The translations under genes and the position numbers were made by a program. Below, in pieces: positions 4,923-47,140 of a stretch of 49,306 nt of DNA; the stretch's first letter is position 1; every line of letters begins with the position of its first letter. The notes beneath the pieces were generated by a model. The model saw nothing but the letters and a program-made list of their open reading frames with translations, searched no databases and had not been told where the DNA came from. The stretch is from an uncultured Neglectibacter sp. Lineage in GTDB: Bacteria > Bacillota > Clostridia > Oscillospirales > Acutalibacteraceae. The stretch is from NCBI GenBank assembly GCA_904374805.1, contig CAJFEW010000024.1, positions 1 to 49,306 on the forward strand. Reading direction: 5' to 3'.

Positions 4923-4935
4923 CAGTATTATTTAG

Positions 4936-9380: not shown

Positions 9381-9391
9381 TATAGGGAATT

Positions 9392-11515: not shown

Positions 11516-11542
11516 CCTCAATCCCTTGCAACGGGTGACAAT
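11508..11542. promoter_or_regulatory. BirA operator
   Basis: ATTGTCAACC and GGGTGACAAT are near-perfect inverted arms (9 of 10 positions) separated by 15 nt, matching the known BirA box form (TTGTnAACC, ~15-nt spacer, GGTTnACAA). It overlaps the -35 box of the birA operon. Confidence 0.85.
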
Positions 11543-11548
11543 TGTTTC

Positions 11549-11582
11549 AAAAAATAGAGCTGCCGCACGTGCGCGGCAGCTC
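11549..11582 (-). terminator. Intrinsic terminator after the MBL hydrolase gene
   Basis: GAGCTGCCGC (11557-11566) and its exact complement (11573-11582) flank a 6-nt loop. On the minus strand TATTTTTT follows. It ends the upstream unit just before the BirA operator. Confidence 0.85.
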
Positions 11583-11630
11583 GCAGGAAACTCTATGTAT
11601 ACAGAAACAGGCACAACCTGCCGCAGGTCT

Positions 11631-12464: not shown

Positions 12465-12569
12465 AGATACAAGTCCTTTCCAAAGGATGATTTGTTCCTC
12501 CTATTACCCTTTCCCAACGGGGAAAAACAGGAGCCTGCCAAGGCGCGCTGTCGCGGCTTGGGTCCAGCG

Positions 12570-14264
<1,695 letters not shown>

Positions 14265-14311
14265 GGTTCCTTTCTAAGGGATTACGTTGCTGTATATTCC
14301 AAACCAGGGAA

Positions 14312-31935: not shown

Positions 31936-31947
31936 GGATATTCCTCC

Positions 31948-33036
31948 TTAGGCAGACAGCTCTTTTCTCTGTTGGGCAAGAAAGGCCGCACACTCCTCCC
32001 AGGTTTGGGGGAAGAAAAACAGGTCCGGCCGGGCCGCGCACAGCTTGCGGGTCTGCACCAGCACCTTGTGGCGCAGCCTTTCCGGGTGCTCCACCAGATC
32101 GCACAAAAATAGGGCCCGGACAGGCTTGCCGAACACCCAATAGGGATTGGTGGCCGCCGAGGAGCCCACCGTGATAAACAGGGTGTGAGAGAAAGAGTGG
32201 TTTAAAACAATCAGCTCCCAGGGCACGGCCGTGCTGGCATTTGTAGCGTAGCCCGCCTGCTGAAAGCGGTTCTCCGGGTTGCGGGGATGGGTTTTGACAA
32301 AAATGTTTTCCTTGCCCACCAAGCCGGCAATCCGGTCTACCAGGGCCACATCGCCGATGTCCACCTGGTCGCAGGGGTAGGACTCCTCGAAAAACAGGAA
32401 GGGCTGGTCGTACCTATCCGGCAGGCGGTCGTAGGAGAAGATGGCATTGAGCAGCGCCAGGGTTTCCGGGGCGTAGGTGGGAGACAGTTTGTACACCGGG
32501 CAGGCAGGCGTCCAATCCAGCGTTTCCGGATGAAACAAATAGAGGGCCTGCACCTTCTGCACCTGGTAAAGCTGCAGCTTCACTTTCCAGCTGGAGCTCT
32601 GCACCAAGTTTCCCACCAGGGGGGAATAGGTCTCCGCCCCATCCTCAAAAAGCTGCCAAACCAGCTGGGGGTTGCGGCGCCGCAAGCCCAAAATCAAGTA
32701 CTGGTTCAGCAGAGAAATATTGGAAAAAAGAAACACGTCGTAGCGCCCCTGTACCGGGACAAACCGCTGCAGCAGCTTTTCCGGGGCCAGCAGGCCTTGG
32801 CAAATGTTTCCCACGGTCTTTCCCCAGGCCAAGCGGTTGAGCCTTTTTTCCTCCACAAAGAGAACATCCCCGTAGGGCCACGCCTTTTGGGCGCTTTCCC
32901 ACAGAGAGCGGGCGCCGTTCATTTGATCGCTGATCAGCAGGTCCGCCTGGGCGTCCGGATAGTACGTCGCCAGCACCTGCACAGCCACCAGCAGCTGGTA
33001 GGGGGTACAGCAAATCACAAGCACACGCTTTCTCAT
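31948..33036 (-). CDS. Sialyltransferase-like glycosyltransferase (GT52/polysialyltransferase type)
   Basis: The N-terminus KRVLVICCTPYQLLVAVQVL resembles family 52 glycosyltransferases, which use CMP-sugars. FVKTHPRNPENRF near residue 250 and TVGSSAATNPYWVFGKPV near 290 fit the donor-binding half of this GT-B group. At ~362 residues with no transmembrane segment, it should act at the cytoplasmic face of the membrane on a surface glycan. Two ATGs (33045 and 33036) lie near AGGAGG; the second is preferred because the first is only 2 nt from it. It is first in the three-gene operon. Confidence 0.78.
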   Translation of the reverse strand: MRKRVLVICCTPYQLLVAVQVLATYYPDAQADLLISDQMNGARSLWESAQKAWPYGDVLFVEEKRLNRLAWGKTVGNICQGLLAPEKLLQRFVPVQGRYDVFLFSNISLLNQYLILGLRRRNPQLVWQLFEDGAETYSPLVGNLVQSSSWKVKLQLYQVQKVQALYLFHPETLDWTPACPVYKLSPTYAPETLALLNAIFSYDRLPDRYDQPFLFFEESYPCDQVDIGDVALVDRIAGLVGKENIFVKTHPRNPENRFQQAGYATNASTAVPWELIVLNHSFSHTLFITVGSSAATNPYWVFGKPVRALFLCDLVEHPERLRHKVLVQTRKLCAARPDLFFFPQTWEECAAFLAQQRKELSA

Positions 33037-33244
33037 AGAACCCATTTCCTCCTAAACCGGTCCCAGCCCCCTTACAAAGGCAAAACAAACGGGGCCTTGG
33101 TTTCGTTTTGCCTAGTATACAGGGGGAAACGTACGCTTTTCGACGGATTTTCGTTAAATGTTGGAAAAGTCACAGCGGGGACAGGCAGCGTCTTTCTCCC
33201 CTTTTTTAGCGGAAAAATAGGCTGCATCGTTCACAATTGCTGCG

Positions 33245-33948: not shown

Positions 33949-34842
33949 GTGGTCGCTACGGAAAGCCTGCTGTTCTGTCTGAAATCTTTTCTCTTGGGTA
34001 TTGTAGAGGGAATTACAGAATTTCTTCCCATCTCCTCTACGGGTCATCTGATTGTGTTTGAAGACCTTCTGCGGTTTGAGGCCTCGGACCAGTACATCAA
34101 CACTTATTCCTATGTGATTCAGCTGGGCGCTATTTTAGCGGTCATTGTGCTGTATCGAAAAAAGATTTTCGCCACCTTGCAAAACCTGTTCCCCAAAAAG
34201 GAGGGAGGCGTTTGGGTACGGCCTTATTCCCAAACAGGCCTTCGGTTTTGGATCACCTTGGCCATTGCCTGCATTCCCGGCTTTCTCGTGGTCATGCTGC
34301 TGGGGGATGTGGTGGACACCTATCTGTTCAACGCCGTCAGCGTTTCCATCGTCCTCATTTTAGGGGGCGTGGCCATGATTTTGGCGGAGCGGTTCCACCC
34401 CAAGAACACCGCTCGTCCCCAAAAGGGAAAGTGGCTGCACGTTTCCACCAAGCAAGCTTTGATTGTGGGAGGGTTTCAGTGCCTGTCGGTGATTCCCGGC
34501 ATGAGCCGCAGCGCCTCCACCATCATTGGCGGCTGGTTTGCCGGACTCTCCACCACGGCCAGCGCGGAATTCTCCTTCTTCCTGGCCATTCCGGTCATGG
34601 TGGGCATGAGCGGCTTAAAGCTGATTCAGCTGGGTGGGTTTGGCTCCATGAACGCCACAGAGCTCCTAAGCCTGGCCATTGGGTTTGTGGTCAGCTTTTT
34701 CGTGGCGCTGATTGTGGTGAAGAAATTCATCGCCTTCCTCCAGAAAAAGCCCATGACCGTTTTTGCTGCCTATCGGATTCTGTTCGGCGTGGTGGTGCTG
34801 GTGCTCAGCGCTGCTGGTGTGGTCAGCGTTACGGCTGGCTGA
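33949..34842 (+). CDS. uppP: Undecaprenyl-diphosphatase UppP/BacA
   Basis: Membrane phosphatase that recycles the C55 lipid carrier for wall and surface glycans. It has about eight hydrophobic segments, GIVEGITEFLPISSTGH near residue 17 and IPGMSRSAST near 180, the two active-site signatures. The start is uncertain: AAGGAG directly abuts the GTG at 33949, leaving no spacing, and the next codon at a normal distance is ACG. A terminator follows. It may supply carrier lipid for the nearby glycan cassette, but it is a housekeeping enzyme in any case. Confidence 0.93.
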   Translation: MVATESLLFCLKSFLLGIVEGITEFLPISSTGHLIVFEDLLRFEASDQYINTYSYVIQLGAILAVIVLYRKKIFATLQNLFPKKEGGVWVRPYSQTGLRFWITLAIACIPGFLVVMLLGDVVDTYLFNAVSVSIVLILGGVAMILAERFHPKNTARPQKGKWLHVSTKQALIVGGFQCLSVIPGMSRSASTIIGGWFAGLSTTASAEFSFFLAIPVMVGMSGLKLIQLGGFGSMNATELLSLAIGFVVSFFVALIVVKKFIAFLQKKPMTVFAAYRILFGVVVLVLSAAGVVSVTAG

Positions 34843-34862
34843 GTCTCTTCTCTGCCCTCTTG

Positions 34863-34892
34863 GGCCGCGGGTTTTCCGCGGCCTTTTCTTTT
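34863..34892 (+). terminator. Intrinsic terminator of uppP
   Basis: GGCCGCGG and CCGCGGCC flank a GTTTT loop and are followed by TTTTCTTTT. Confidence 0.88.
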
Positions 34893-34956
34893 GCCCTGTT
34901 TCAGGTCTGCCGAAGATGGGGCTCTTTGCTGATTTGAAAAAATTTGAAAAATAATG

Positions 34957-34985
34957 TTGCAATTTGATAGAATATGTGCTATTGT
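34957..34985 (+). promoter_or_regulatory. Promoter A of the sugar regulon
   Basis: TTGCAA, 17 nt, TATTGT with an extended TG at the -10 (ATGTGC before TATT). ATTTGA occurs three times between 34930 and 34970, overlapping the -35. The layout matches the promoters before nanE and before the binding-protein gene. Confidence 0.65.
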
Positions 34986-35035
34986 TAGGACAGCGAGGAG
35001 ACGCTCCCGCAGATTCTAGAAGGATGTGAGTTGTT

Positions 35036-35896
35036 ATGGCATTAAAGATTGGTTTACAGCTATATTCCGTTCGGGAACCAATGGCTGTGCAGCCGGTGGA
35101 AACACTGCAAAAAATTCTGGAAGCCGGTTACCGCTATTTGGAGCCTGCCAACGCCAGAGCCGGCCAGGATCCAGGCATTGGCTGGGGCCTTTCCGCAGAA
35201 AAACTCTTGGAAATTCTCCAACCTTATGGAGCGCGGGTTTCCAGCGCCCATGTGGGGCCCCTAGACGAAAGCACCCTGCCCTCCATTGTGGAATACCACA
35301 GCACCATCGGCAACCGCAACATTGTGCAGGCCATTGAGTTTTACACAGGGTACGACCACCTGATGCGCCGCTGCGAGGATTACAACCGCATCGGCAAATA
35401 TTTGGTGGAACACGGGATGAACCCCCTGCTCTATCACAACCATTACCACGAGTATCAGATGTTCCGGGATAAGCCGGCGCTGTATCACATGCTGGAGAAC
35501 ACAGACCCCCGTTATGTGAATTTCGAGGTGGACACCGGATGGGTCAAACGGGCCGGGCGGGACCCCTTGGAGGAAATGCGCCATGTAGGCAACCGCCTGC
35601 GCATTATCCACATCAAGGACTTTGCCCACACGCCGCCCAACCTGCTGCTGGGAAAAGAAGAGCCCATCAGCTGGGAAACCTTCGGCGCCAACTCCCAGCC
35701 GGGAGATGTGATGCATCCCGAAGATTTTACAGAGCTTGGAGCGGGCATTATGAATATCCAGGAGATTCTAGACACAGCCGATGCCCTGGGGGCAGAATAC
35801 GCTGTGCTGGAGCAGGACGAGTCTGCAAAGGATATTTTGGAAAGCATCGCCATCAGCTATCAGAACCTTCGCACCTATAAAAATATCGAACTATAA
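35036..35896 (+). CDS. Sugar-phosphate isomerase/epimerase (xylose isomerase-like TIM barrel)
   Basis: This 286-residue AP-endonuclease-2-type barrel starts KIGLQLYSVREPM. Metal-site residues are suggested by LLYHNHYHEYQM near residue 130, NFEVDTGWVKRAG near 161, IIHIKDF near 185 and the C-terminal YAVLEQDES. The family isomerises or epimerises sugars, keto-sugars and inosose derivatives. It is monocistronic between two terminators but shares promoter design with the glycyl-radical operon, so it probably acts in the same pathway. The substrate is unknown. Confidence 0.88.
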   Translation: MALKIGLQLYSVREPMAVQPVETLQKILEAGYRYLEPANARAGQDPGIGWGLSAEKLLEILQPYGARVSSAHVGPLDESTLPSIVEYHSTIGNRNIVQAIEFYTGYDHLMRRCEDYNRIGKYLVEHGMNPLLYHNHYHEYQMFRDKPALYHMLENTDPRYVNFEVDTGWVKRAGRDPLEEMRHVGNRLRIIHIKDFAHTPPNLLLGKEEPISWETFGANSQPGDVMHPEDFTELGAGIMNIQEILDTADALGAEYAVLEQDESAKDILESIAISYQNLRTYKNIEL

Positions 35897-35920
35897 CTCG
35901 GGTTTCGTATACAGTTGGAA

Positions 35921-35970
35921 AAGGAGGATTTTCGCATTTCGGCAAACGGAAAGCGGGGATCCTCTTTTTT
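35921..35970 (+). terminator. Intrinsic terminator of the first isomerase gene
   Basis: GAGGAT (35924-35929) pairs with ATCCTC (35959-35964), with further CGC/GCG and TTTCGG/CGGAAA-like pairing inside, followed by six Ts. Confidence 0.7.
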
Positions 35971-35984
35971 ATGGGCGAAGCATC

Positions 35985-36020
35985 TTTAAAAAATGGTAAA
36001 ATATGGTATAATTTGAGAAA
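35985..36020 (+). promoter_or_regulatory. Promoter B and shared ATTTGA element of the ROK-DeoR unit
   Basis: TTTAAA (35985-35990), 16 nt, TATAAT (36007-36012). The 30 nt at 35991-36020 match those at 37773-37802 at 26 positions and include two AATGRT-like repeats and AATTTGAGAAA. Here the element covers the -10, so binding would repress. Confidence 0.6.
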
Positions 36021-36029
36021 GGAACAGCT

Positions 36030-36989
36030 ATGAAAAAATACATTGGCATTGACTTGGGCGGCACAAATATTGCCGTGGGAATTGTGGATGAGGAATGCCG
36101 CATTCTCTTCAAACACAGCCGCCGGACCCAGGCCGATCTTCCCTTTGAGGCCATTGTAGCGGATATTGCCGATACGGTTCGGGAAACGCTGGACCTTGCA
36201 GGTCTCACGTTCGCCCAGATGGAAGCGGTGGGCTTGGGAACGCCCAGCTGCATCAATCCCCACACAGGTTTGCTGGTGCACGCCAACAACCTGCACTGGC
36301 GCAATGTGCCGCTGCGGGAGGAGCTGGAAAAGCACCTTCCCCTCCCCCTCTTCATTCGCAACGACGCCGACTGCGCCGCCTTGGGAGAGGCTTTGGCAGG
36401 GGCTGCAAAAGAGTACGAGCACGTTTTGATGGTCACCCTGGGAACCGGTGTTGGGGGAGGCATGATCATGGGGAAGCAGATTTTCAACGGCTGCGACCAC
36501 ATGGGAATGGAGATCGGCCACACCAAACTGGTCTTCCAAGGGGTGCAGTGCACGTGCGGCCAGTACGGCTGTTTTGAATCCTACGCCTCTGCTACGGCGC
36601 TGATCCGGCAGACCCGGGAGGCCATGGAGCAGCATAAAGACTCCCTTTTATGGAAACTGTGCGGCGGAGACGAAGCTGCTGTGACCGCCCGCACCGCCTT
36701 TGACGCCGCTCGCCAGGGAGACCCTGTGGGACAGGCCTTGGTGGACCGGTACATCGCCTATTTGGCAGCGGGACTTTCCACGCTCATTGTGCTGTTCCGT
36801 CCCCAGGTGATCCTGATCGGCGGCGGCATCGGCAACGAAGGAGAGGCGCTGCTTCAACCTCTGCGCCTGCAGATGGCCCAATCCACCTATGCGGCAGAGG
36901 AAATCGGCGTCCCGCCGGTACGTTCGGCCGCCTTGGGAAACGATGCGGGAATCATCGGCGCTGCCATGCTGGGCCGGGGACAAACATAA
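36030..36989 (+). CDS. ROK-family sugar kinase
   Basis: This 319-residue ROK kinase begins with the phosphate-binding YIGIDLGGTNIAVGIVD. It has the sugar-binding IRNDADCAALGE near residue 108 and GTGVGGGMI near 137, the conserved EIGH, and the zinc motif CTCGQYGCFE with Cys174, Cys176 and Cys181. It phosphorylates a hexose or an N-acylhexosamine. With nanE just downstream, an N-acetylmannosamine-like sugar is one possibility. It shares a transcript with the DeoR gene 24 nt downstream. Confidence 0.92.
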   Translation: MKKYIGIDLGGTNIAVGIVDEECRILFKHSRRTQADLPFEAIVADIADTVRETLDLAGLTFAQMEAVGLGTPSCINPHTGLLVHANNLHWRNVPLREELEKHLPLPLFIRNDADCAALGEALAGAAKEYEHVLMVTLGTGVGGGMIMGKQIFNGCDHMGMEIGHTKLVFQGVQCTCGQYGCFESYASATALIRQTREAMEQHKDSLLWKLCGGDEAAVTARTAFDAARQGDPVGQALVDRYIAYLAAGLSTLIVLFRPQVILIGGGIGNEGEALLQPLRLQMAQSTYAAEEIGVPPVRSAALGNDAGIIGAAMLGRGQT

Positions 36990-37013
36990 ATTAAGGAAAG
37001 GAATGGCTATTTC

Positions 37014-37778
37014 ATGATTGCATCCGAAAGGAGAAGGTACATTTTGAACGCTCTGAACCTGCGGGGCGTTATCAGTCTGAAGGACACCGCCCGGGAGTTG
37101 GGTGTGGCGGAGATCACGGTGCGCCGGGATTTTGAAAAGTTGGAAAGCGAAGGAAAGCTCAAGCGTGTGCAGGGAGGCGCCACCTCCTTAGAAGAGCTGG
37201 ACGGGGCCGAGCTGACTATGACCTCGAAACTCCCCATGCACATGCATGGAAAAGAAGCCGTCGCCCAGTATGCCGCCGACCTTGTGCGGGACGGGGAATG
37301 TGTGTTCATTGACGGCGGAACAACCATGGTTCCTTTTGCGTCTGCCATCATGCGGAAAAATGTGCGCATTATTACCTACAACACCATGGTTTTGAAAAAG
37401 CTTTCCAACCCCACTGCACAAATTATCCTGATCGGCGGAGAGTACCGCCCTCATTACGAGATGAATGTGGGCACCATCGCTCAGGATATGCTTCAGATGT
37501 TCTACTTTGACAAGGCCTTCTTTGGATGCTCCGGCGTGGATCTTTCCCAGCGGGTTGCCTATACCACAGAGACGGAGAGCTTAAAGATGAAACGGATTGC
37601 CATGAGCAATTCCAGCCACAACTTCCTCTTGGTGGATCAATCCAAGTTCTCCTCTCGGGGCTTTCTAAAGTTCTGCCCTACCGACCAATTCGAAGCCATT
37701 CTCAGCGACTCCCTTCCGGACACGGAAGAAGAACTGCCGGAAAACCTGCGCTCGGTTGCACAGGATTCGCCAAAATGA
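37014..37778 (+). CDS. DeoR/GlpR-family regulator of the sugar regulon
   Basis: The N-terminal winged helix (about residues 1-57) reads SERRRYILNALNLRGVISLKDTA then AEITVRRDFEKLE. The C-terminal sugar-phosphate sensor has FIDGGTTMVPFA near 98, IITYNTMVLKKL near 118 and LIGGEYRPHYEMNVG near 140. Such regulators release DNA on binding a phosphorylated sugar. It is co-transcribed with the ROK kinase, and its stop codon overlaps the start of the shared element ahead of nanE, so it is the best candidate to bind those elements. Confidence 0.9.
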   Translation: MIASERRRYILNALNLRGVISLKDTARELGVAEITVRRDFEKLESEGKLKRVQGGATSLEELDGAELTMTSKLPMHMHGKEAVAQYAADLVRDGECVFIDGGTTMVPFASAIMRKNVRIITYNTMVLKKLSNPTAQIILIGGEYRPHYEMNVGTIAQDMLQMFYFDKAFFGCSGVDLSQRVAYTTETESLKMKRIAMSNSSHNFLLVDQSKFSSRGFLKFCPTDQFEAILSDSLPDTEEELPENLRSVAQDSPK

Positions 37779-37837
37779 TAAAAAATGATAAAATTTGAGA
37801 AAAACAGATTGAATTCTTTCTGAACATGTGCTATTAT
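37773..37837 (+). promoter_or_regulatory. Shared element and promoter C of the nanE-glycyl radical operon
   Basis: The 30-nt element at 37773-37802 (26 of 30 identical to that at 35991) lies just upstream of TTGAAT (37809-37814), 17 nt, TATTAT (37832-37837), with an extended TGC at the -10. ATGTGCTATT is shared with promoter A. Confidence 0.7.
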
Positions 37838-37842
37838 ACCCT

Positions 37843-37856
37843 TGTAAGCGATTCAA
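37843..37856 (+). promoter_or_regulatory. Possible CcpA cre-like site
   Basis: TGTAAGCGATTCAA matches the cre consensus TGWAARCGYTWNCW at 12 of 14 positions and lies just downstream of promoter C. Catabolite repression of a sugar operon would be expected, but a match of this quality can occur by chance. Confidence 0.3.
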
Positions 37857-37895
37857 AGAATATCAAAATGGATCCTACAAGGGAGTGGTTTTGTA

Positions 37896-38648
37896 ATGAA
37901 AACAACGGACAGCAGAAAGCGCAAGCTTTTGGAATCCTTTCGAAACGGGCTGATTGTCTCCTGCCAAGTGCAGCCGGACGACCCCATCTATTCCGAAGAG
38001 ATGCCGGTAAAAATGGCCCAGGCAGCCCAGTGGGGCGGCGCCGTAGGCATTCGGGCCAACACGCCGGAGCAAATCCGCGCCATCAAGTCTCAGGTTGATC
38101 TTCCAGTGATTGGCCTCTACAAAATTTGGACCCCCGGAACCGATGTGTTCATCACCCCTACGTTGGAAGCAGCCCGAGAGGTGTTTGCAGCCGGGGCGGA
38201 AATTGTCGCCCTGGACTGCACCGATCAGCTGATTGACGGGCGGCCCGCCTGGGAGCTCCTGCCCCAGGTGAAGGAAGCGCTTCCGGAGGCCATTTTGTTC
38301 GCCGACGTGTCCAACTATGAAGAGGCCCGCCGGGCCGTGGATCTGGGCGCGGACATTGTGGGACCCACCCTGTACGGCTATACGGAGCAGACCAAGCACA
38401 TTGAAGAACCCAATCTTCGGGAATTCGCCCGGATGTGCCGCGACCTGAGGGACGAGGCTTACTTGATTATGGAAGGCCATATTTACACCCCGGAAGACGC
38501 CGTGAAATGTTTGTATTTAGGCGCTCATGCGGTTGTGGTAGGCAGCGCGATCACACGGCCCCACTACACCACCAAGCGTTTTACGGACTTGATCTCCGGC
38601 TATCGGAAGAACTGGCGGGAGGATGAGTTGGCCCGCCACGGAGAGTGA
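37896..38648 (+). CDS. nanE: N-acylglucosamine-6-phosphate 2-epimerase-like (NanE family)
   Basis: This 250-residue (beta/alpha)8 protein has GLIVSCQVQPDDP near residue 18, GGAVGIRAN near 46, LPVIGLYKIW near 69 and a late VVVGSAITRP phosphate site. NanE converts ManNAc-6-phosphate to GlcNAc-6-phosphate. Neither the sialic acid lyase nor nagA/nagB is in the window, so it may act on a related 2-amino or 2-acylamino sugar phosphate. AAGGGAG lies 10 nt before the ATG. It is the first gene of the operon, with the glycyl radical enzyme gene 19 nt later. Confidence 0.88.
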   Translation: MKTTDSRKRKLLESFRNGLIVSCQVQPDDPIYSEEMPVKMAQAAQWGGAVGIRANTPEQIRAIKSQVDLPVIGLYKIWTPGTDVFITPTLEAAREVFAAGAEIVALDCTDQLIDGRPAWELLPQVKEALPEAILFADVSNYEEARRAVDLGADIVGPTLYGYTEQTKHIEEPNLREFARMCRDLRDEAYLIMEGHIYTPEDAVKCLYLGAHAVVVGSAITRPHYTTKRFTDLISGYRKNWREDELARHGE

Positions 38649-38667
38649 GAAGGGGGCGCAAGCTTTT

Positions 38668-40944
38668 ATGGCAAAATTTGACGTAAACGGCGCGCAAAAC
38701 GTGGAAGTCAGTCAGAAATTCCCCTGTGAAAAAACCCCCGAAGAACAGCTGCGCATTATGAAGGAATACACCCGGGTCCACCGGGAACACCTGCAAAGCG
38801 GCCGGGAGGAACGGGAAATCGCCTGCCTGCAGGTGCTGTATCCCCGGCTGTTTCGAAGCATTGAGGACTGCGATTGGATAGCCGGGCGCATTGATTTTCT
38901 TCCCATCGGGTTTGGCTGTGTCACTTCCCTGGGCGGCGTGGGGCACTACTGCGTGTTTAACAAGCTGCTTCAGTTCCGGGAGACGCTTCCCGCCGAGGAC
39001 CGGCCTCGTGTGGACGCCCTATACAACTACTGGCTGGACCACGACTTGAAAACAAAGTACTGCCGGGAGGTGTTGACCGACGACACTGTGGGCCGTTTCA
39101 TTGACTGCGAGTATCCGCTCATTGCAACGGCCAGGCTTTCCGGCATGATGCTGGACTATCCCAAACTGTTGGATTTGGGCATTGGGGGATTGCGCAAGCT
39201 TCTCCAAGAAAAAGCCAGCGCCCAGCCGGAAAACGCCTTTTACCCAGCGGAGCTCTCCTGCCTGGAGCTGTTCGCCACCTGCGCAGACCACCTGCGGACC
39301 CTGGCACTGGAACAGCGGGAGCGCGCCTCGGAAGCGCGCCGGCATCAGCTGACGCGGATTGCAGAGGGCCTGCTTTGGATTCGGGAGGGAAAACCCAGAA
39401 CCTTCCACGAAGCGCTGCAGCTGTTCTGGCTGTTTGCCCTGCTGGCCGGGGTTATCAACTACGGCAGGCTGGACGACTATTTGGGGCCCTACCTGGCAAA
39501 GGACTTGGAAGAAGGGCGCCTCACCCAGGAAGAGGCGTACCAGTACGTGAAATCCCTGTGGACCATGATCGAAAACCGTCGGACCACTGTAAACGGCCGT
39601 GTGATTGTGGGAGGCCGGGGACGCAAGCATCCCAAAGAGGCGGACATCTTCCTGCACATCGCCCTGCAGGTGGCCAAAGAGTGCCGGTATGTGGAACCGC
39701 AGTTCACTTTGCGGGTGGACAGCGAAACCCCAGAGGACGTGTGGGACGAAGCCATGGACGCTTTGGGCGCCGGGGCCACCTATCCCACCATCTACAACGA
39801 CGATGTAAACGTGCCGGCGGTCCAGTTTGGCATGCGTGTGGATGAGAAAACCGCCGAGCAGTACGTGCCGTTTGGCTGCACAGAATTTGTCATTCAGGGG
39901 CAGAGCACAGGAACACCCAACATCTGTATGAACCTGTTGAAACTCTTGACCATCCTGCTCAACCAAGGGGTGGATCCCATGGACGGCATTCGAAAAAACG
40001 GCCCCGTTCCCCTGCGAAAGCTGGAGGACTACCGCACCTTTGAGGAGCTGTATGGGGACTACAAGAAGCTGTTGGACCATTACATGGATTTGTCCATCCA
40101 CGCCCAGCTGTACTCCTACGAAGCCATGAACCGGGACGTGTCTTTTCTGTTCACCAGCCTGCTGATGGACGACTGCCTGGAAAGAGGCAAAGCGCTGCTG
40201 GACGGCGGGGTGCGGTACCTGGGGGGCACCAATGAGATTTACGGCATTTTCAACGCTTCCGACAGCCTGTGGGCGCTGAAGGACCTGGTGTTTACCCGGA
40301 AGAAGTACACCCTGCCTCAGGTGGGAGAAGCCCTGCTGGCCAACTTTGCAGGGTACGAACAGATGCGCAAAGACCTGTGGAACTGCGACAAGTACGGCAA
40401 CGACCTGGACACCGCAGACGGCATGGCGGTGGACCTTTACCGGTTTGTAGCCCAGGGGGTGCGCAACCGGGGCATTGCGGCAGGCATGCAGTATTTCCTT
40501 GTGGTGATCAGCAACAACCAGCTGAACACCGAATGGGGCCGCCGCACGGGAGCCTCTCCGGACGGGCGTCTGGCGGGCATGTATATGAATCCTGCCAACA
40601 ACCCGCAGGGAGGCGCCAACGTAAACGGTCCCACAGCCATGCTCAACTCCCTGGCTAAAATTGAAGCCAAATATCACGCGGGCGCCGTCCAAAACATCAA
40701 GTTCTCTCCCACCTTCTTCGCGGAGAACCGAGATGCGATCAAGGACCTGTTCAAAACCTATTTTCAAAAGGGCGGGCCCCACATTATGGTGACCGTGGTG
40801 GGCCGGGGCGTTCTGGAAGACGCGGTGAAACATCCGGAAAACTACAAGGACTTGATTGTCCGTGTCAGCGGCTTTTCTGCGGTATTCGTCAATTTGGAGC
40901 CGGATATCCAGCAGGAACTTATGAGCCGCGTGCTCTATGACTGA
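38668..40944 (+). CDS. Glycyl radical enzyme of unassigned subclass
   Basis: This 758-residue PFL-like enzyme carries the radical loop IVRVSGFSAVFV with Gly735 and the thiyl site PFGCTEF with Cys404 and Glu406. A single Cys followed by x-Glu excludes pyruvate formate-lyase (two Cys) and resembles eliminase-type enzymes. However, the residue after Glu is Phe, not the Pro of diol dehydratase and choline lyase (GCVEP). GRVIVGGRGRKHPKEAD near residue 309 and YNDDVNVPAVQFGM near 376 look like an uncharacterised gut subclass. The ATG at 38668 has a GAAGGGGG site upstream. Its activase gene overlaps by 8 nt. NanE, a dehydrogenase and an isomerase beside it suggest a sugar or sugar-phosphate substrate with C-O or C-N cleavage (inference). 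Confidence 0.92.
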   Translation: MAKFDVNGAQNVEVSQKFPCEKTPEEQLRIMKEYTRVHREHLQSGREEREIACLQVLYPRLFRSIEDCDWIAGRIDFLPIGFGCVTSLGGVGHYCVFNKLLQFRETLPAEDRPRVDALYNYWLDHDLKTKYCREVLTDDTVGRFIDCEYPLIATARLSGMMLDYPKLLDLGIGGLRKLLQEKASAQPENAFYPAELSCLELFATCADHLRTLALEQRERASEARRHQLTRIAEGLLWIREGKPRTFHEALQLFWLFALLAGVINYGRLDDYLGPYLAKDLEEGRLTQEEAYQYVKSLWTMIENRRTTVNGRVIVGGRGRKHPKEADIFLHIALQVAKECRYVEPQFTLRVDSETPEDVWDEAMDALGAGATYPTIYNDDVNVPAVQFGMRVDEKTAEQYVPFGCTEFVIQGQSTGTPNICMNLLKLLTILLNQGVDPMDGIRKNGPVPLRKLEDYRTFEELYGDYKKLLDHYMDLSIHAQLYSYEAMNRDVSFLFTSLLMDDCLERGKALLDGGVRYLGGTNEIYGIFNASDSLWALKDLVFTRKKYTLPQVGEALLANFAGYEQMRKDLWNCDKYGNDLDTADGMAVDLYRFVAQGVRNRGIAAGMQYFLVVISNNQLNTEWGRRTGASPDGRLAGMYMNPANNPQGGANVNGPTAMLNSLAKIEAKYHAGAVQNIKFSPTFFAENRDAIKDLFKTYFQKGGPHIMVTVVGRGVLEDAVKHPENYKDLIVRVSGFSAVFVNLEPDIQQELMSRVLYD

Positions 40945-41872
40945 CCGGCAGCTTCTGCATCTCTTTGACATACAGCGCTTTTCCCTGCACGACGGGCCAG
41001 GTATTCGCACAACCGTCTTTTTCAAAGGCTGTAATTTGCGGTGTCCCTGGTGCTCCAACCCGGAATCCCAGCGAAGGGAAAAGGACCTGCTGTACATGGA
41101 AAATTCCTGCTTGGGCTGCGGCGCCTGCGCCGCCCAGTGCCCTCAGGGAGCGATCCGCTTTCACCCAGGTGAGCTGCCGGTTTTCCACCGGGACCGCTGC
41201 CAGAGATGCGGCAGATGCGTGCAGGTTTGCCCCGGAAGCGCCCTGCGCCTTGCAGGCATGGACCGGACCGTGGAGGACGTTCTAAACCTGGTGGAGCGGG
41301 ACAGGGCCTATTACGAAAGAAGCGGCGGAGGGCTGACGCTCTCCGGCGGAGAGCCCTTGCTGCAGCTGGAAGCAGCGGAAGCCCTGGCCTTCGGGGCCCA
41401 AAACAGAGGCCTTTCCGTAGCCCTGGAAACCGCCGGCGACGTGGACCCAGAGCATTTTTCCCGGGTGGTTCGGTGGGTTGACCTGCTTTTGCTGGACGTA
41501 AAACACAGGGATCCCCAGCGGCTGCAAGCGGTGACCGGCGCCCACTTAGACCGGATTCTATCCAACTTGTCCCAAGCACGCTCTCTGACGAAGGAAATTG
41601 TCCTTCGTGTTCCCGTCATTCCCGGCTTTAACAATGAGCCGGAGGACCTTCGGGGAATCCTCCGCTTGGCCGCCCAAACCGGCGTTTCCCAAGTGGACCT
41701 GCTTCCCTACCATCTTTTGGGAAAATCTAAATATACACAGCTGGGGCGGGCCTACCCCTACGAGGACAAATACCCCGCCTTGGAAAAAGAGAGCCTCATC
41801 CCCTGCCAAACCTGGGGGGACGAGCTGCACCTACAGGTGACCATCGGCGGCAAACGGCTGCCGTTGTCATAA
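40937..41872 (+). CDS. Glycyl radical enzyme activase (radical SAM)
   Basis: Installs the glycyl radical on the partner enzyme using S-adenosylmethionine. The SAM [4Fe-4S] motif is GCNLRCPWC (Cys32, Cys36, Cys39). A ferredoxin-like insert adds two clusters, CLGCGACAAQC (58-68) and CQRCGRCVQVC (88-98), as in eliminase-type activases. LTLSGGEPLLQ near residue 134 is the GGE motif. Overlap with the enzyme gene (ATGACTGA) makes the pairing firm. The 311-residue length is usual for the two-cluster activases. Confidence 0.95.
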   Translation: MTDRQLLHLFDIQRFSLHDGPGIRTTVFFKGCNLRCPWCSNPESQRREKDLLYMENSCLGCGACAAQCPQGAIRFHPGELPVFHRDRCQRCGRCVQVCPGSALRLAGMDRTVEDVLNLVERDRAYYERSGGGLTLSGGEPLLQLEAAEALAFGAQNRGLSVALETAGDVDPEHFSRVVRWVDLLLLDVKHRDPQRLQAVTGAHLDRILSNLSQARSLTKEIVLRVPVIPGFNNEPEDLRGILRLAAQTGVSQVDLLPYHLLGKSKYTQLGRAYPYEDKYPALEKESLIPCQTWGDELHLQVTIGGKRLPLS

Positions 41873-41902
41873 CCTTACATTTCTTTTAGGAGAAGACCAT
41901 CT

Positions 41903-42997
41903 ATGAAAACCTGGAAAGTTGCCTTAATTGGCTGCGGATCCATCGCAGAAAGCATTTACATTCCGCAAATGGCCCACATTCCCCAAACAGAACTGGTGGC
42001 TGTGTGCGACATCATTCCTGAGCGGGCTCAGAAATACGCAGAGCGGTTTCACGTGCCCCAGTGGTATCCCAACATTGACGAGCTGCTGGCCCACTGCGAT
42101 TTTGACATTCTCATGGACACCGCCTCCATTCCCGCCCACCACGAAATCAACATGAAAGCTCTGCAGGCCGGAAAACACCTGTATTCCCAAAAGCCTGTGG
42201 GCCTGACGGTGGAGCAGGTGACGGAACAGATGGAGGCAGCCCAGAAAGCTGGAGTCAAATTTGCCGCTTCCCCCATCCATCCCCTGCGGCCGGACATTCT
42301 GTTCATTCGGGACATGATTCAAAATGGGGCCATCGGCAAGGTCACCATGGTGCGGGCCCACACAGCCCACGGCGGGCCGGAGCATTTCCAGTACCGGGAT
42401 GCGGATCCCAGCTGGTTCTTCGAACCTGGCGCCGGGGCCATTTACGACATGGGTGTGCACGGCCTGACCATGGCTGTGGCCGTGCTGGGACCTGCCAAAG
42501 AGGTGTCCTGCACCGCTGTGATCTCCCAGCCGGAGCGGGTGGTGCGCACCGGCGCCTTCGACGGCAAGAAAATTAAGGCGGACTATTTGCCGGACAACTA
42601 CCTGATCACCCTGAACTGGGGCGACGGATGCATTGGCGTGGTAGACGCCGGCTTCTGCCAAGTGGCCTCCACGGTGAACATGCTGGAGGTTTACGGAACC
42701 AAGGGCACCCTCACCATTCTGGGACAGATTAAAATTGGCGAGGGCGATGGAGTCCGCATGTACCTGGACAGCCCGGAACTGAAGGTCCGGGGCTGGCTGG
42801 ATCCCCTGTCCCAAGACCGGCCTCCCAGAGGAGAATTTGAGCAGTGCGAGTGCCTCTCCGATCTGATCCACGCCATTGAGACGGACACCACGCCTACGCT
42901 GGATCCCAAGATCGCCCGCCATGTAGTGGACATTATGTGCACCATTCCCCAGGCGATTGAGGAGAAGCGCACCCTGCCCTTGCACACCACCTTTTAA
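41903..42997 (+). CDS. Gfo/Idh/MocA-family oxidoreductase
   Basis: This 364-residue NAD(P)-dependent sugar dehydrogenase has the Rossmann motif ALIGCGSIAE near residue 7, the catalytic SQKPVGLT near 94 (the usual EKP lysine is Lys) and a C-terminal sheet domain with EPGAGAIYDMGVHGLTMAV, giving the catalytic Asp-x3-His pair. Members oxidise or epimerise sugars through keto intermediates; one branch opens 2,7-anhydro-sialic acid. It lies 30 nt after the activase gene in the operon. The substrate is open, but a keto-sugar or anhydro-sugar fits the neighbours. Confidence 0.9.
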   Translation: MKTWKVALIGCGSIAESIYIPQMAHIPQTELVAVCDIIPERAQKYAERFHVPQWYPNIDELLAHCDFDILMDTASIPAHHEINMKALQAGKHLYSQKPVGLTVEQVTEQMEAAQKAGVKFAASPIHPLRPDILFIRDMIQNGAIGKVTMVRAHTAHGGPEHFQYRDADPSWFFEPGAGAIYDMGVHGLTMAVAVLGPAKEVSCTAVISQPERVVRTGAFDGKKIKADYLPDNYLITLNWGDGCIGVVDAGFCQVASTVNMLEVYGTKGTLTILGQIKIGEGDGVRMYLDSPELKVRGWLDPLSQDRPPRGEFEQCECLSDLIHAIETDTTPTLDPKIARHVVDIMCTIPQAIEEKRTLPLHTTF

Positions 42998-43036
42998 CAA
43001 ACCCCTATTTCCGTTTTGGAGAGGATGTGAATCCCT

Positions 43037-43939
43037 TTGATCGCCACAGGAATTTTTACCGGGTATTATCCAGACACAGTGGACGGCGTCATCCGCCAGA
43101 TTAAACGGGACGGTTTCTCCTGCGTGCAGCTGGACGTCTCCTTTAAGGATTGCGACGCCGCCAAGGAACATCTCACCAAGGAGCGCGCCCAGGAGATCCG
43201 CGACAAATTCCGGGACGCCAATCTGCCTGTTGTGGCTGTTTCTGCCTACACCAATATTGTGCACCACGACCTCGAGCAGAGAAAGCGGAATATCGCCTAT
43301 ATCAAAGGCATGATGGAACGGGCCCTGGACTTGGGCTGCCCCTATGTGGCCAGCGAGACAGGCACCTACCACCCAGACAGCGATTGGGTTTGGCACGAGC
43401 GCAACGGCACTGAGGAAGCCTACGAGGAAACGGCGGAGATTCTGTACGACCTGGTTAAATTTGGCAGAGAGGTGGGTGCCACCTTCTTGGTGGAAAACTA
43501 CGTGAACAACGTGATCGGCTCCATCCAGCGGGTGCAGCAGCTTTTTGACGAGATCAACATGCCCAACCTGAAGCTGATCTGCGATCCCACCAACTTCTTC
43601 ACCACAGAGAACATCCACGATGTGGACGGCACCCTGCGGTCTATCTTCCACGCGTTGTCCGACAAAATGGTCATTGCCCATGCGAAAGACATCAAACCGA
43701 CACAGGACACCCGTGTAAAGCGGGCGGATATTGACGCGGATGAATCCCATGTGTTCCGCGGCGCCGGCGGTGTGGAGCTTCCCGCTGCTGGACTGGGCCT
43801 GTTAAATTACAACCTGTATGTATCTCTTTTGGCAAAACATCATCCCAACATTCCACTGATTGTGGAACACGTGGACGCCGGGGATATTCCCCGGGCGAAA
43901 CGGTTTGTGGATGGCGTCCTGAAGCACCAGGGCGTTTAA
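43037..43939 (+). CDS. Second TIM-barrel sugar isomerase/epimerase
   Basis: This 300-residue xylose isomerase-like barrel has SAYTNIVHHDLEQR near residue 72, VENYVNNVIGS near 149 (metal Glu), LICDPTNFFTTEN near 176 (metal Asp), VIAHAKDIKP near 213 and a C-terminal LIVEHVDAGD (metal Glu), so all expected metal ligands are present. The TTG at 43037 is used because an in-frame stop lies just upstream and GAGAGG precedes it. It is the last gene of the operon; the tandem hairpin array starts 30 nt after its stop. The substrate is unknown. Confidence 0.85.
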   Translation: MIATGIFTGYYPDTVDGVIRQIKRDGFSCVQLDVSFKDCDAAKEHLTKERAQEIRDKFRDANLPVVAVSAYTNIVHHDLEQRKRNIAYIKGMMERALDLGCPYVASETGTYHPDSDWVWHERNGTEEAYEETAEILYDLVKFGREVGATFLVENYVNNVIGSIQRVQQLFDEINMPNLKLICDPTNFFTTENIHDVDGTLRSIFHALSDKMVIAHAKDIKPTQDTRVKRADIDADESHVFRGAGGVELPAAGLGLLNYNLYVSLLAKHHPNIPLIVEHVDAGDIPRAKRFVDGVLKHQGV

Positions 43940-43968
43940 AGAAGATTCCCAAAGGCCCAGAGATGCAG

Positions 43969-44638
43969 GGGGCTGCTGCGTCGTGCAGCAGCACCCTTTC
44001 CTTTTGGTGCGGCTGAACTGGAAGACGGGCAATATTCTTCTTTGCTAAAAGAGCGGGTGCTGCTGTGTCATACAGCGGCCGCTTTCCTTTTGGTGCGGTT
44101 GGGCCTGGAAACGGGCAATGTTCTTCTTTGCTAAAAGAGCGGAGGGCTGCTGCGCCATGCAGCAGCTCCCTTTCCTTTTGGTGCGGCTGAACTGGAAGAC
44201 GGACCATGTTCTTCTTTGCTAAAAGAGCGGAGGGCTGCTGCGTCATGCAGCAGCTCCCTTTCCTTTTGGTGCGGCTGAACTGGAAGACGGACCATGTTCT
44301 TCTTTGCTAAAAGAGCGGGGGGCTGCTGCGTCATGCAGCAGCTCCCTTTCCTTTTGGTGCGGCTGAACTGGAAAACGGGCAATATTCTTCTTTGCTAAAA
44401 GAGCGGGGGCTGCTGCGTCATGCAGCAGCTCCCTTTCCTTTTGGTGCGGCTGAACTGGAAGACGGGCAATGTTCTTCTTTGCTAAAAGAGCGGAGGGCTG
44501 CTGCGCCATGCAGCGGCCCCCTTTCCTTTTCTTCTTTGCTAAAAGAGCGGAGGGCTGCTGCGCCATGCAGCGGCCCCCTTTCCTTTTGGTGCGGCTGAAC
44601 TGGAAGACGGGCAATGTTCTTCTTTGATAAAAAAGGAA
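43969..44638. repeat. Array of eight ~88-bp tandem repeats with hairpins
   Basis: Counting from the repeated GCTAAAAGAGCGG block, spacings are 86, 88, 88, 88, 87, 57 and 88 nt, so there are eight units, one with a 31-nt deletion. Each unit begins with a stem such as GCTGCTGC-GTCAT-GCAGCAGC, followed by TTTCCTTTT, TTGGTGCGG, TGAACTGGAA and TTCTTCTTTG. Unit 2 keeps the stem with GCTGT/ACAGC in place of GCTGC/GCAGC, a compensatory change. Open frames on the minus strand here are by-products. The array fills most of the 846-nt gap between the glycyl radical operon and the binding-protein gene and could terminate, pause or stabilise that transcript. Confidence 0.9.
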
Positions 44639-44678
44639 AAAGTTTTGCAATAAAATGAAAATATTTTGCTGAAAAAGC

Positions 44679-44707
44679 TTGAATTTGATCAAATGTTGTG
44701 GTATTAT
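44679..44707 (+). promoter_or_regulatory. Promoter D of the binding-protein gene
   Basis: TTGAAT, 17 nt, TATTAT with TGG before the -10. The perfect dyad ATTTGATCAAAT (44683-44694) overlaps the -35 and contains the ATTTGA motif shared with promoters A-C. Confidence 0.65.
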
Positions 44708-44785
44708 CTGAACAATAATAAACCAAAAACGCTCAAAAGGAGTTGTTTTGAAAATTCTGGTTTATCGCACAAGGGAGGATGTACC

Positions 44786-46708
44786 ATGAAAAAAAGCAGA
44801 AAACTTCTTGCCATCCTGCTGACAGTTGCCCTTGCCCTCTCCTCAGCCGCATGCTCCGGAGGGGGAGGCTCCCAGGCCTCTGGGGAATCCTCGGGAACAC
44901 CGGAGAGCTCTCAGGCTCAGACGGAAAGCTCCCAGGCTCAGACGGAAAGCTCCCAGGCTTCTGAAAGCAGCACAGCAGAAAGCAGCGCCGAAGAGGCGCC
45001 CGCCGCGGACATGACTTCCTATCCGCGGGAAGAGTCCCTGTACTACGCCCCAGGACAGTGGGGCGCGCCGGTTTCCAACAACCCGCTGGCTTCCAACCCC
45101 AACTACGCGGCTATGTCCCAGTCGGATATGGCCCGGGAACTGGTTTGGGAAACCCTGTACATGTGGAACCCTTCGGACGAAACAGCCTATCCCCTGCTGG
45201 CAGACGGGGAATACCAGTGGAATGAGGACCAGACGGCGATCACCGTGAAGCTGAAAGAGGCTGCCCATTGGAGCGACGGCACCCCGCTGACCGCAGCCGA
45301 TGTGGAGGCCACCTGGGACGCCCACGTGAACTACCAGAGCAACACAGGCATTGCCTACAGCCCCTACATTGCCGACGTGGTGGCCATTGACGACCACACC
45401 GTGGAATTCCAGGCCAACACGGACAACCTCAACCGCATGAAAATGCTGGAGTATCTCCCCAAGGTCTACGTGATGCAGAAGGCCTATCTGGAGGAGCTGG
45501 ACGCTCAGCACGGCGGCGACGCCACGGCGGTGAAGAACGAGCTGATGTGGGACGCCCCCACCACGGCCCCCTACCATCCCTTAGAGCAGAACGACCAAAA
45601 ATGGGTCATTCAGCGGGATGAAAACTACTGGGGGCAGGACGCGTCCATGTGGGGCGAGCTGCCGGCACCGAAGTACATCATCTGCAACATTTACGCCAAC
45701 AACGACGCCTACAACCAGGCGTTCCAGGCGGGCGACATTGATGTAAACCAGGCGTACATCGCCAACGTGGAAACCCTGTGGGAAGACATGGGACTGCCCA
45801 TCTCCACCTACATTGAGGAACCGCCCTACAACGCCCCTGGCACACTGCCCACGGTGGTGTTCAACACCCAGCGCCCTGGTTTGGACCAGCCTGCTCTGCG
45901 GAAGGCCATTGCCATGGCCACGGACTATGACCAGATCATCGCCTCCGCCATGTCGGGGCAATCCCCTACCTTTAAGGAATATCCCCGCACGCTGTTCAAC
46001 TGGTCGGAAGAGCAGCAGAGCCTGATTTTGGATCCCGAAGCACTGGCTCCCCTGCAGTGGGAAGGGCAGGATGTGGAAGGCGCCATTGCCCTGCTGGATG
46101 AGGCAGGCATTGTGGACACCAACGGCGACGGCAACCGGGAATACAACGGCGAAGAGCTCTCCTTCCAGGTGGAGTGCCCCACCGGTTGGTCCGACTACGA
46201 AGCAGCCCTGCAGATTGTGCAGGAAGCAGGCAAGGCCATTGGCATTCAGATTGAGACCTATTTTCCTGAATCCGCCCAGTACACCGACGACCTGCAGGCT
46301 GGCAATTTCGACATCACGTTGACCTCCTTCAGCGGCGGCATCTCCGGCGCCTACACCGTGTTCTATTCCTACATGTACGGGTTTGGCGGGGAGTTTGCCG
46401 AAGGGATGACCACCAACTACGGCCGGTATTACAATGAAGAAGCGGACCAGCTGCTGATGGAGCTCTCCAACGAACTGGACGAGACCCGTCAAAAAGAAAT
46501 CTACCAGCGGCTCAATGAGATCTACCTCACCGACGTTCCCAGCTTTGCGGTGATGTACCGCCCCTATGTATTCCACAGTGTCTACGAAGGGGTGTGGACA
46601 AACTTCCCCAGCGAGAACGATTCCACAGATCCCAAGATTCCTCCCATGATCTGCACAGACGGCTACGGCATTGCAGCCCTGTACAATCTGGAGCTGGTGA
46701 ACGGCTGA
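44786..46708 (+). CDS. ABC transporter solute-binding lipoprotein, family 5
   Basis: This 640-residue secreted protein has a lipoprotein signal (KKSRKLLAILL..., Cys23 in SSAAC), then a Ser/Gln/Glu-rich linker built of three 7-residue repeats. A family 5 (OppA/MppA-type) binding domain from about residue 70 follows, with LKEAAHWSDGTPLTAADVEATWDA near 155 and a late YQRLNEIYLTDVPSFAVMYRP. GGAGG lies 7 nt before the ATG. Family 5 proteins bind peptides, nickel or oligosaccharides. No permease or ATPase gene follows, so it is an orphan component, possibly tied to the sugar regulon through its promoter. Confidence 0.92.
   Translation: MKKSRKLLAILLTVALALSSAACSGGGGSQASGESSGTPESSQAQTESSQAQTESSQASESSTAESSAEEAPAADMTSYPREESLYYAPGQWGAPVSNNPLASNPNYAAMSQSDMARELVWETLYMWNPSDETAYPLLADGEYQWNEDQTAITVKLKEAAHWSDGTPLTAADVEATWDAHVNYQSNTGIAYSPYIADVVAIDDHTVEFQANTDNLNRMKMLEYLPKVYVMQKAYLEELDAQHGGDATAVKNELMWDAPTTAPYHPLEQNDQKWVIQRDENYWGQDASMWGELPAPKYIICNIYANNDAYNQAFQAGDIDVNQAYIANVETLWEDMGLPISTYIEEPPYNAPGTLPTVVFNTQRPGLDQPALRKAIAMATDYDQIIASAMSGQSPTFKEYPRTLFNWSEEQQSLILDPEALAPLQWEGQDVEGAIALLDEAGIVDTNGDGNREYNGEELSFQVECPTGWSDYEAALQIVQEAGKAIGIQIETYFPESAQYTDDLQAGNFDITLTSFSGGISGAYTVFYSYMYGFGGEFAEGMTTNYGRYYNEEADQLLMELSNELDETRQKEIYQRLNEIYLTDVPSFAVMYRPYVFHSVYEGVWTNFPSENDSTDPKIPPMICTDGYGIAALYNLELVNG
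44906..44968 (+). repeat. Three 21-bp tandem repeats in the lipoprotein linker
   Basis: Copies at 44906, 44927 and 44948 differ by one base between the first two and in the last third of the third. They encode the flexible linker after the lipid-modified Cys, where length changes are tolerated. Confidence 0.85.
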
Positions 46709-46735
46709 GCCCACTCCTTGCGCAAACAGAACGAA

Positions 46736-46779
46736 AGCAGGAGGCCTCTCCCCCACGGGAGCAGGCCTCCTGCTTTTTG
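46736..46779 (+). terminator. Intrinsic terminator of the binding-protein gene
   Basis: AGCAGGAGGCCT (46736-46747) and its exact complement (46763-46774) form a 12-bp stem followed by TTTTT. Confidence 0.9.
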
Positions 46780-47010
46780 TGTGCTGGATATTGGCAGAGC
46801 CAAGGAGCAAGGCAAAACCACCTCTAGGAGGGGTCATTCACCATTATAGCAGCTTTGACGTTGCTTTTGCCTAAGCTCTAAACTCCCACCGGCATAGCCG
46901 ACGGTTTTTGAAGCCCCCCGCGCCAAGGCGCGGGGGGCTTCGCTAAAGCACCAAACCAAAAGAAAAGGAAGTGATCCCTCACTTCCTTTTCCAAAAGCTG
47001 CACCGTGTAT
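46780..47010. other. Hairpin-rich intergenic stretch, possible IS200/IS605-type remnant
   Basis: No gene is seen. It contains a small CCGGC/GCCG hairpin near 46889-46905 next to a T-rich tract, then a 15-bp perfect GC hairpin (46910-46924 with 46927-46941, 2-nt loop), then a 13-bp hairpin (46962-46974 with 46979-46991). Subterminal hairpins of this kind occur at IS200/IS605 ends, but no transposase fragment is present. Confidence 0.3.
46962..46991 (-). terminator. Terminator-like hairpin after the small ORF and blaR1
   Basis: GAAAAGGAAGTGA and its exact complement flank a 4-nt loop (13-bp stem). On the minus strand TTTTC lies at the 3' base followed by TTTTGG. It is placed to end the blaI-blaR1-small ORF transcript. 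Confidence 0.65.
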
Positions 47011-47139
47011 TTAGGTCACATCCATCCAGTACGGGTCTACCCAGTATCCCCAGGTCTCGTTCCACCGGCGATACTGCAGCTTTCCATTATAAAGACGATA
47101 CTTCATTACAATTACATCTTTACGCGGTTCAATGGCCAT
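47011..47139 (-). CDS. Small 42-residue Trp/Tyr-rich protein
   Basis: An ATG at 47139 opens a 42-residue frame reading MAIEPRKDVIVMKYRLYNGK, then LQYRRWNETWGYWVDPYWMD and VT. AAGGTG lies 6 nt upstream, inside the end of the blaR1 gene, whose stop is one base before this ATG, so translation is probably coupled. Nine aromatic residues in 42 and a strongly basic first half with an acidic end suggest a folded or membrane-surface peptide. I do not recognise it. It is followed by a 13-bp hairpin. Confidence 0.6.
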   Translation of the reverse strand: MAIEPRKDVIVMKYRLYNGKLQYRRWNETWGYWVDPYWMDVT

Positions 47140-47140
47140 T

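Follow-up and report, generated by a model that had tools for sequence, protein, structure and literature searches.

The window analyzed here is one complete contig of 49,306 nucleotides from an uncultured Neglectibacter sp. (assembly GCA_904374805.1, contig CAJFEW010000024.1), whose plus strand carries, at 35036-46708, a gene cluster built around a glycyl radical enzyme (GRE) and a NanE-family sugar-6-phosphate 2-epimerase. The GRE has intact active-site motifs and falls in a separate clade, the NanE belongs to a subclade of its own, and the two recur together in related loci. The cluster points to an undescribed anaerobic breakdown of glucose-like or mannose-like sugars. GREs perform some highly consequential anaerobic reactions in the gut, and this conserved, patchily distributed pair, carried by Parabacteroides distasonis and other human commensals, would mark a new carbohydrate fermentation step. 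An earlier note on this DNA (the original prediction) knew of no described pathway with this gene set, and the open-access literature that we searched, with subscription journals mostly outside it, likewise yielded none. The genes up to 43939, beyond which the cluster runs on to a solute-binding lipoprotein gene, are as follows.

35036..35896, + strand: TIM-barrel protein A (AP_endonuc_2; weak IolE-like match; nearest solved chains 8tct, 8tcs, 8tcd, 3l23, 8bvk)
36030..36989, + strand: ROK hexokinase, glucokinase-like (best PDB match, glucokinase 3vgk)
37014..37778, + strand: DeoR-family regulator (profile match)
37896..38648, + strand: NanE-family sugar-6-phosphate 2-epimerase of the GRE-linked subclade (profile and alignment)
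38668..40944, + strand: GRE, 758 aa (Cys404, Glu406, Gly735)
40937..41872, + strand: GRE activase, radical S-adenosylmethionine protein with ferredoxin-type clusters (TIGR02494, 339 bits, cut-off 174)
41903..42997, + strand: Gfo/Idh dehydrogenase (DgpA-type C-glycoside dehydrogenases among nearest solved relatives)
43037..43939, + strand: TIM-barrel protein B, TTG start (AP_endonuc_2; PDB search gave a weak IolI match only)

The original prediction had placed an intact GRE (Cys404-Thr-Glu406 and Gly735) and an overlapping activase in an operon with NanE, Gfo/Idh and a TIM-barrel gene, flanked by ROK, DeoR and a further TIM-barrel gene. All of these were found in their places, and the residue numbers are right for the conserved start, ATG 38668, in a reading frame open from 38623. 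The NanE gene ends 19 bases before the GRE start, the last 8 bases of the GRE gene are shared with the activase gene, and gaps of 30 and 39 bases precede the Gfo/Idh and TIM-barrel B genes, respectively.

The GRE clade and its active site

Six peptide patterns taken from the window GRE were used to scan a species-level genome collection, a choice that favors close relatives. We confirmed 93 relatives and retained the best 80 (48-78% identity), on which all locus counts rest. Locus gene content was determined by tblastn, NanA, NagA and NagB being searched with the E. coli proteins and, like FsaB and GldA, at a 1e-8 threshold. The neighboring genes often come from metagenome-assembled genomes, and the counts are lower bounds because many loci stop at contig edges.

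The window protein has both GRE domains (PF02901, 393 bits; PF01228, 92 bits) together with the Cys and glycyl radical motif of the superfamily, and its AlphaFold model superposes on known GREs over approximately 700 residues. Cys404 and Glu406 are kept in all 80 related loci and Gly735 in 78, the position being uncovered in the remaining two; residue 405 is Thr in 63 loci and Gly in 17. An activase was seen in 75 of the loci. The window activase and NanE passed subfamily models, and no NCBIfam equivalog cut-off was reached by the GRE, the activase, the Gfo/Idh protein or either TIM-barrel protein.

In a quick reference tree made with 18 of 42 aligned family rows, and with five long-branched rows of unsure placement, the 18 sampled rows all formed one clade (SH-aLRT 100), and YbiW, PflD, CutC and HypD lay in a different branch (SH-aLRT 99). 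The GRE is 24.6% identical to YbiW, 27.4% to PflD and 24% to CutC and HypD. It resembles E. coli PflD and YbiW in having an activase, in overall fold, in its sugar-6-phosphate setting and in the phosphotransferase system (PTS) genes beside its basal relatives, but differs in its GC(T/G)E motif (GCVE/GCIE in the E. coli enzymes) and in its NanE partner. As the original prediction had noted, neither an Fsa-type aldolase nor a GldA-like gene was found in the window; among 81 targets searched, FsaB matched none and E. coli GldA one. Clade, identity and partners contradict a YbiW/PflD identity and support a GRE for which no function appears to be assigned. The GRE does not cluster with these enzymes at isofunctional identity, an outcome that would have counted against the original prediction.

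In a rival reading, the GRE is another anhydrohexitol-phosphate lyase that has diverged into a clade of its own. Like PflD, it would open 1,5-anhydromannitol-6-phosphate (AM6P) or a related anhydro sugar, with NanE on a side route. The substrates of PflD and YbiW are AM6P and 1,5-anhydroglucitol-6-phosphate (AG6P) according to passages of PMC12441222 and PDB titles; the basal GREs of L104, L106 and G740 lie near fructose-type PTS genes, much as pflD lies near frw genes, and GldA and DeoC genes stand 3' of the GRE in L089. We nonetheless regard this explanation as unlikely, given the separate clade at 25-27% identity, the FsaB and GldA counts, and a NanE left without a role because an anhydro sugar has no C1 carbonyl. 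This anhydro half of the substrate originally predicted still stands as a rival.

Arg305, Asn309, Arg311 and Arg319 are invariant across the 80 GREs, and our guess is that they are candidate phosphate ligands. The GH-motif His of other GREs aligns with Gly159, which is also invariant (80/80), and the diol-dehydratase Asp with Asn418 (pairwise) or Pro417 (MAFFT), both invariant. The microcompartment or hydroxyproline partners of the B12-independent glycerol/propanediol dehydratases, CutC and HypD were absent from the neighbor scans, which included no search aimed at them. A microcompartment considered for small genes 3' of the PTS in the Listeria locus L080 was rejected, the two scanned being a tRNA synthetase and a SpoU methylase.

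The GRE-linked NanE subclade

NanE was found in 68 of the 80 loci: fewer than 300 bases upstream of the GRE on the same strand in 54, farther upstream in 2, downstream in 10 and on the opposite strand in 2, leaving 12 in which it was unseen. Other partners were ROK (42), DeoR (24), a GH94-like protein (17), ManA (9) and a mannose-type PTS (7), and in 33 loci the searches for Gfo/Idh, DUF1080 and TIM-barrel genes found at least one. The complete window gene order recurs in L100, and L034 and L035 share the gene set, TIM-barrel gene B coming first. In P. distasonis the order is ROK-NanE-GRE-activase, followed by an O-acetyltransferase and AraC, then DUF1080, two Gfo/Idh genes and a TIM-barrel gene. 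Because overlapping gene sets recur in related loci, the cluster is non-random, which bears out the predicted company of sugar-phosphate genes in the synteny check that had been suggested.

The window NanE scored 237.7 bits against PRK01130 (cut-off 189); no other full NanE was found in the window genome, which gave one weak partial match (9.6e-5). The alignment comprised 59 GRE-linked NanEs and a comparison set of 15: the E. coli protein, two PDB chains and 12 proteins of the same order, labeled canonical from distance, not assay. The catalytic residues Q11, R40, K63, D124, E180 and R208 (S. aureus numbering) are present in all 59. Four changes, L13Q, M122F, T144P and A179M, occur in 59/59 GRE-linked NanEs versus 0/15 others, and position 72 is Phe in 58/59, compared with Tyr in 10, Arg in 4 and Phe in 1 of the others. 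In addition, F135, P157, Y160, M192 and H195 were found in 9/9 GRE-type NanEs that the genome searches yielded (one or more of which repeat a counted locus) versus 0/8 canonical-type ones, and the subclade bears a C-terminal extension. In the S. aureus NanE structure, the acetamide contacts Tyr149 and Lys63, and Phe72 (Tyr75 in C. perfringens) is close by, according to passages of PMC8482478.

The GRE-linked proteins thus share family and Lys63/Glu180 catalytic set with the NanEs of S. aureus (6vva) and Fusobacterium nucleatum (5zkn), and differ in the extension, in the rarity of NanA, NagA and NagB nearby, and in fixed changes by the catalytic residues. Since these changes flank retained catalytic residues, the alignment suggests a pocket reshaped beside Asp124 and Glu180, and a substrate that differs from N-acetylmannosamine-6-phosphate (ManNAc-6-P). 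The signature suggests caution in annotation, for example with the P. distasonis genes named N-acetylmannosamine-6-phosphate 2-epimerase and pyruvate formate lyase family protein.

An amino-sugar route would instead make NanE a true epimerase of ManNAc-6-P and N-acetylglucosamine-6-phosphate, with the GRE removing or rearranging the C2 acetamide by C-N elimination, a chemistry for which CutC, which eliminates trimethylamine, is a precedent. The NanE family score above cut-off and the full catalytic set with Tyr149 agree with it, as do the adjacent, divergent NagA genes of L082 and L105, the NagB-like gene of L060 (which scores below cut-off), and a family-20 glycosyl hydrolase close to a Persicobacter sister GRE. 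On the other hand, the pocket changes are fixed in 59/59, the ROK protein is closest to glucokinase, and a radical would be superfluous in standard NagA/NagB chemistry. Among the 81 targets, NanA matched 1, NagA 2 and NagB 1, none in the window; the E. coli NanK query matched 0/81 and also missed the 42 ROK genes, and thus tests for close NanK only. With its pocket altered, its kinase glucokinase-like and NanA, NagA and NagB rare, this originally predicted option is weakened, and we doubt it about as much as the anhydro sugar.

To place NanE in the pathway, we turned to the 12 loci without a nearby NanE, searching 11 of the genomes (L061 was left out). A GRE-type NanE lies elsewhere in the genome for L043, L076 and L088; L037, L085 and L106 have only a canonical-type NanE (the L106 copy with a stop codon); and L063, L083, L089, L092 and L104, some from incomplete assemblies, have no NanE at 1e-15. 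With L037, L061, L063 and L083 left out as uncertain, a fructose/mannosylglycerate-type PTS gene was found in 5/5 loci of genomes without a GRE-type NanE versus 1/71 with it. Adding L037 gives 5/6 versus 1/71 (Fisher p 1.8e-6), and adding L063 and L083 as well gives 5/8 (p 1.4e-5), values that are descriptive only because the loci are non-independent. The PTS gene lies on the GRE strand in four of the five loci, its near end 0.1-3.4 kb off, and in L085 8.9 kb away on the opposite strand. A glycoside hydrolase family 38 (GH38) alpha-mannosidase occurs in two of these five versus 1/71, in L092 between PTS and GRE.

The basal GREs of L104, L106 and G740 are without GRE-type NanE and stand beside fructose/mannoside-type PTS genes, and the two Epulopiscium GREs, likewise without it, are near PTS genes. 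In G740, a single-contig genome, the basal GRE adjoins a fructose-type PTS gene and the two NanEs are canonical-type. Such a GRE therefore seems able to function without a GRE-type NanE when its sugar enters via a PTS, and since basal and Epulopiscium GREs have PTS genes instead, NanE probably acts upstream of the GRE. The original prediction, in which NanE and the isomerases process the GRE product further, is probably wrong on this point.

Probable hexose supply and a possible radical branch

The ROK protein scored 190 bits with glucokinase 3vgk, 126 with the human GNE ManNAc kinase 3eo3 and 105 with bacterial NanK 5nck, and fell just under its NCBIfam model (254.7 versus 260.35). The nearest solved chains of the Gfo/Idh dehydrogenase are 6jw6 and DgpA. 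TIM-barrel protein A matches its listed chains at E 4e-15, under names such as sugar phosphate isomerase or xylose isomerase(-like); 8tct, 8tcs and 8tcd are reportedly from work on a 3-keto glycan pathway. In a 3-keto-glycoside pathway, protein A would probably act as beta-eliminase or hydratase.

In passages of PMC10628242, the glycoside dehydrogenase operon of Agrobacterium (GlycDH-OGE-HYD) also encodes another oxidoreductase and a pair of isomerase-like proteins. One of the pair is a 3-keto-glycoside beta-eliminase; for the other, preliminary evidence led to the proposal that it hydrates the product to 3-keto-glucose, which a Gfo oxidoreductase converts to glucose. By homology, the window set resembles this operon and the gut DgpA module in its oxidoreductases and two sugar-phosphate-isomerase-like TIM barrels, with glucose as endpoint there, and differs in being joined to a kinase, NanE, GRE and activase. 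Because it fits this outline of oxidation, elimination, hydration and reduction, the Gfo/Idh and TIM-barrel proteins probably supply hexose ahead of the GRE, again unlike the predicted order. Genes for 3-keto-disaccharide hydrolases in 12/80 loci, from Bacteroidota, are suggested to fill the same role.

Taking these observations together, we tentatively favor an anaerobic hexose branch running from glycoside to glucose, glucose-6-phosphate, mannose-6-phosphate or a close manno-configured analogue, and radical C-O elimination. The Gfo/Idh and TIM-barrel proteins would oxidize the glycoside at C3 and, after elimination, hydration and reduction, release glucose or a close analogue; the ROK kinase would form the 6-phosphate; and the NanE-like enzyme would epimerize C2 to give a manno-configured hexose-6-phosphate, in the simplest case mannose-6-phosphate. 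The activated GRE would then abstract hydrogen at the carbon adjoining the leaving group and eliminate a C-O bond, preferably that of the axial C2 oxygen created by the epimerase. On chemical reasoning, radical elimination requires the leaving group to line up with the radical orbital, and an axial C2 oxygen would suit a C1 or C3 radical. The product may be a deoxy-keto sugar phosphate degraded by aldolases or housekeeping enzymes.

In its most specific form, the GRE acts on mannose-6-phosphate itself, made in one step from glucose-6-phosphate by a repurposed NanE, eliminates its axial C2 oxygen, and would be the first GRE on an ordinary hexose phosphate; this is possible, though we hold it with less confidence than the general scheme. 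If true, sugar would leave central metabolism by a radical route; if the sugar is another, an overlooked substrate would be revealed. GH38 and ManA (mannose-6-phosphate isomerase) beside the GRE fit mannose-6-phosphate as a common point. Of the nine ManA genes, three were scored against the NCBIfam cut-off (L110 well above, L082 just above, L102 below), and in L044 and L110 ManA sits between GRE and activase. Three observations weigh against the branch: L037 has a ROK gene but no GRE-type NanE; neither ROK nor PTS of the searched kinds was seen in 26/80 loci; and Tyr149, which packs on the acetamide methyl, is retained in 59/59 GRE-linked NanEs.

A modified glucose (a methyl ether, 3-amino or 3-keto sugar) freed from glycosides could also be the GRE substrate, with NanE acting on its phosphate. 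The Gfo/Idh, DUF1080 or TIM-barrel genes in 33/80 loci would suit it, and the operon kinase and epimerase hint at a dedicated, non-glycolytic sugar; yet no scanned locus gene indicates a particular modification, and the PTS and mannosidase partners suit plain hexoses, so that we rate it as less probable still than the amino-sugar or anhydro-sugar routes. Cleavage of a C-C bond as by pyruvate formate-lyase (by formula, hexose-6-phosphate = formate + deoxyribose-5-phosphate) was set aside because the GRE has a single active-site Cys (GCTE), in contrast to the two-cysteine ACCVS of TdcE. A gene for the deoxyribose-phosphate aldolase DeoC opens a long GRE operon in L082, L086 and L105.

Distribution and surrounding features

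Judged from their record titles, the best 80 relatives come from Bacillota (52), Bacteroidota (25), Spirochaetota (2) and Actinomycetota (1). The GRE-NanE pair is rare: phylum-wide, and apart from the window's own genome, the GRE was found at 1e-200 in 0/397 genomes and NanE at 1e-80 in 0/397. GREs above 50% identity in the window's family occurred in 2/397 other genomes, G563 (78%; the L100 genome or a copy thereof) and G740 (51%). Among viral contigs, four pattern matches gave no confirmed relative. Loci of sister GREs (31-42% identity) had scattered ROK, Gfo/Idh, AraC, FGGY, ManA and NagA matches only; NanE was unseen there, and ten scanned neighbor proteins gave no substrate clue.

The GH94-like family, a weak Pfam match, adjoins the GRE in its 17 loci (for example L052 13281-15533), five of them with a HAD phosphatase-like gene. 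For one member searched, no PDB relative was found by sequence, and one copy starts with a signal-like stretch. Additional GREs were observed in two loci. L029, from an order-level relative, has three different GRE genes and two activases within 13 kb (2885-15479), and the Epulopiscium locus L089 has, at 6330-13262, a second divergent GRE with alcohol dehydrogenase, FGGY kinase, GldA and DeoC genes 3' of the studied GRE.

In the window, promoter-like sites lie 5' of TIM-barrel gene A (34944), ROK (35985) and NanE (37767 and 37809), in line with the look-alike promoters predicted; each agrees with the consensus at 9-10 of 12 bases. In all, 14 such sites were counted in the scanned region versus 4.8 expected; these are consensus matches only, and further ones lie inside genes. 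An Rfam scan of 34500-47500 gave nothing at the gathering score. The features beyond the TIM-barrel B gene are as follows.

43970..44587, no strand: array of an 88-bp unit, 6.4 copies, then a 57-bp repeat (terminator-like hairpins included)
44786..46708, + strand: solute-binding lipoprotein, SBP_bac_5 (73% identical paralogue elsewhere in the genome)

The array separates TIM-barrel gene B from the lipoprotein gene, and with its hairpins it may tune read-through into this transporter gene, beside which no permease gene was seen. The paralogue lies on another contig of the genome (G000:C15; L187 6496-12734), and the genes after it are homologous (57-77%) to the L034 operon's permease and ATPase genes; the neighbors of that locus gave no sugar clue. 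Further upstream in the window, at 29636-33045 on the minus strand, visual inspection of the translations picked out genes that resemble those for an aldolase-type protein fused to a further domain, for a cytidylyltransferase of the CMP-sugar type and for a glycosyltransferase.

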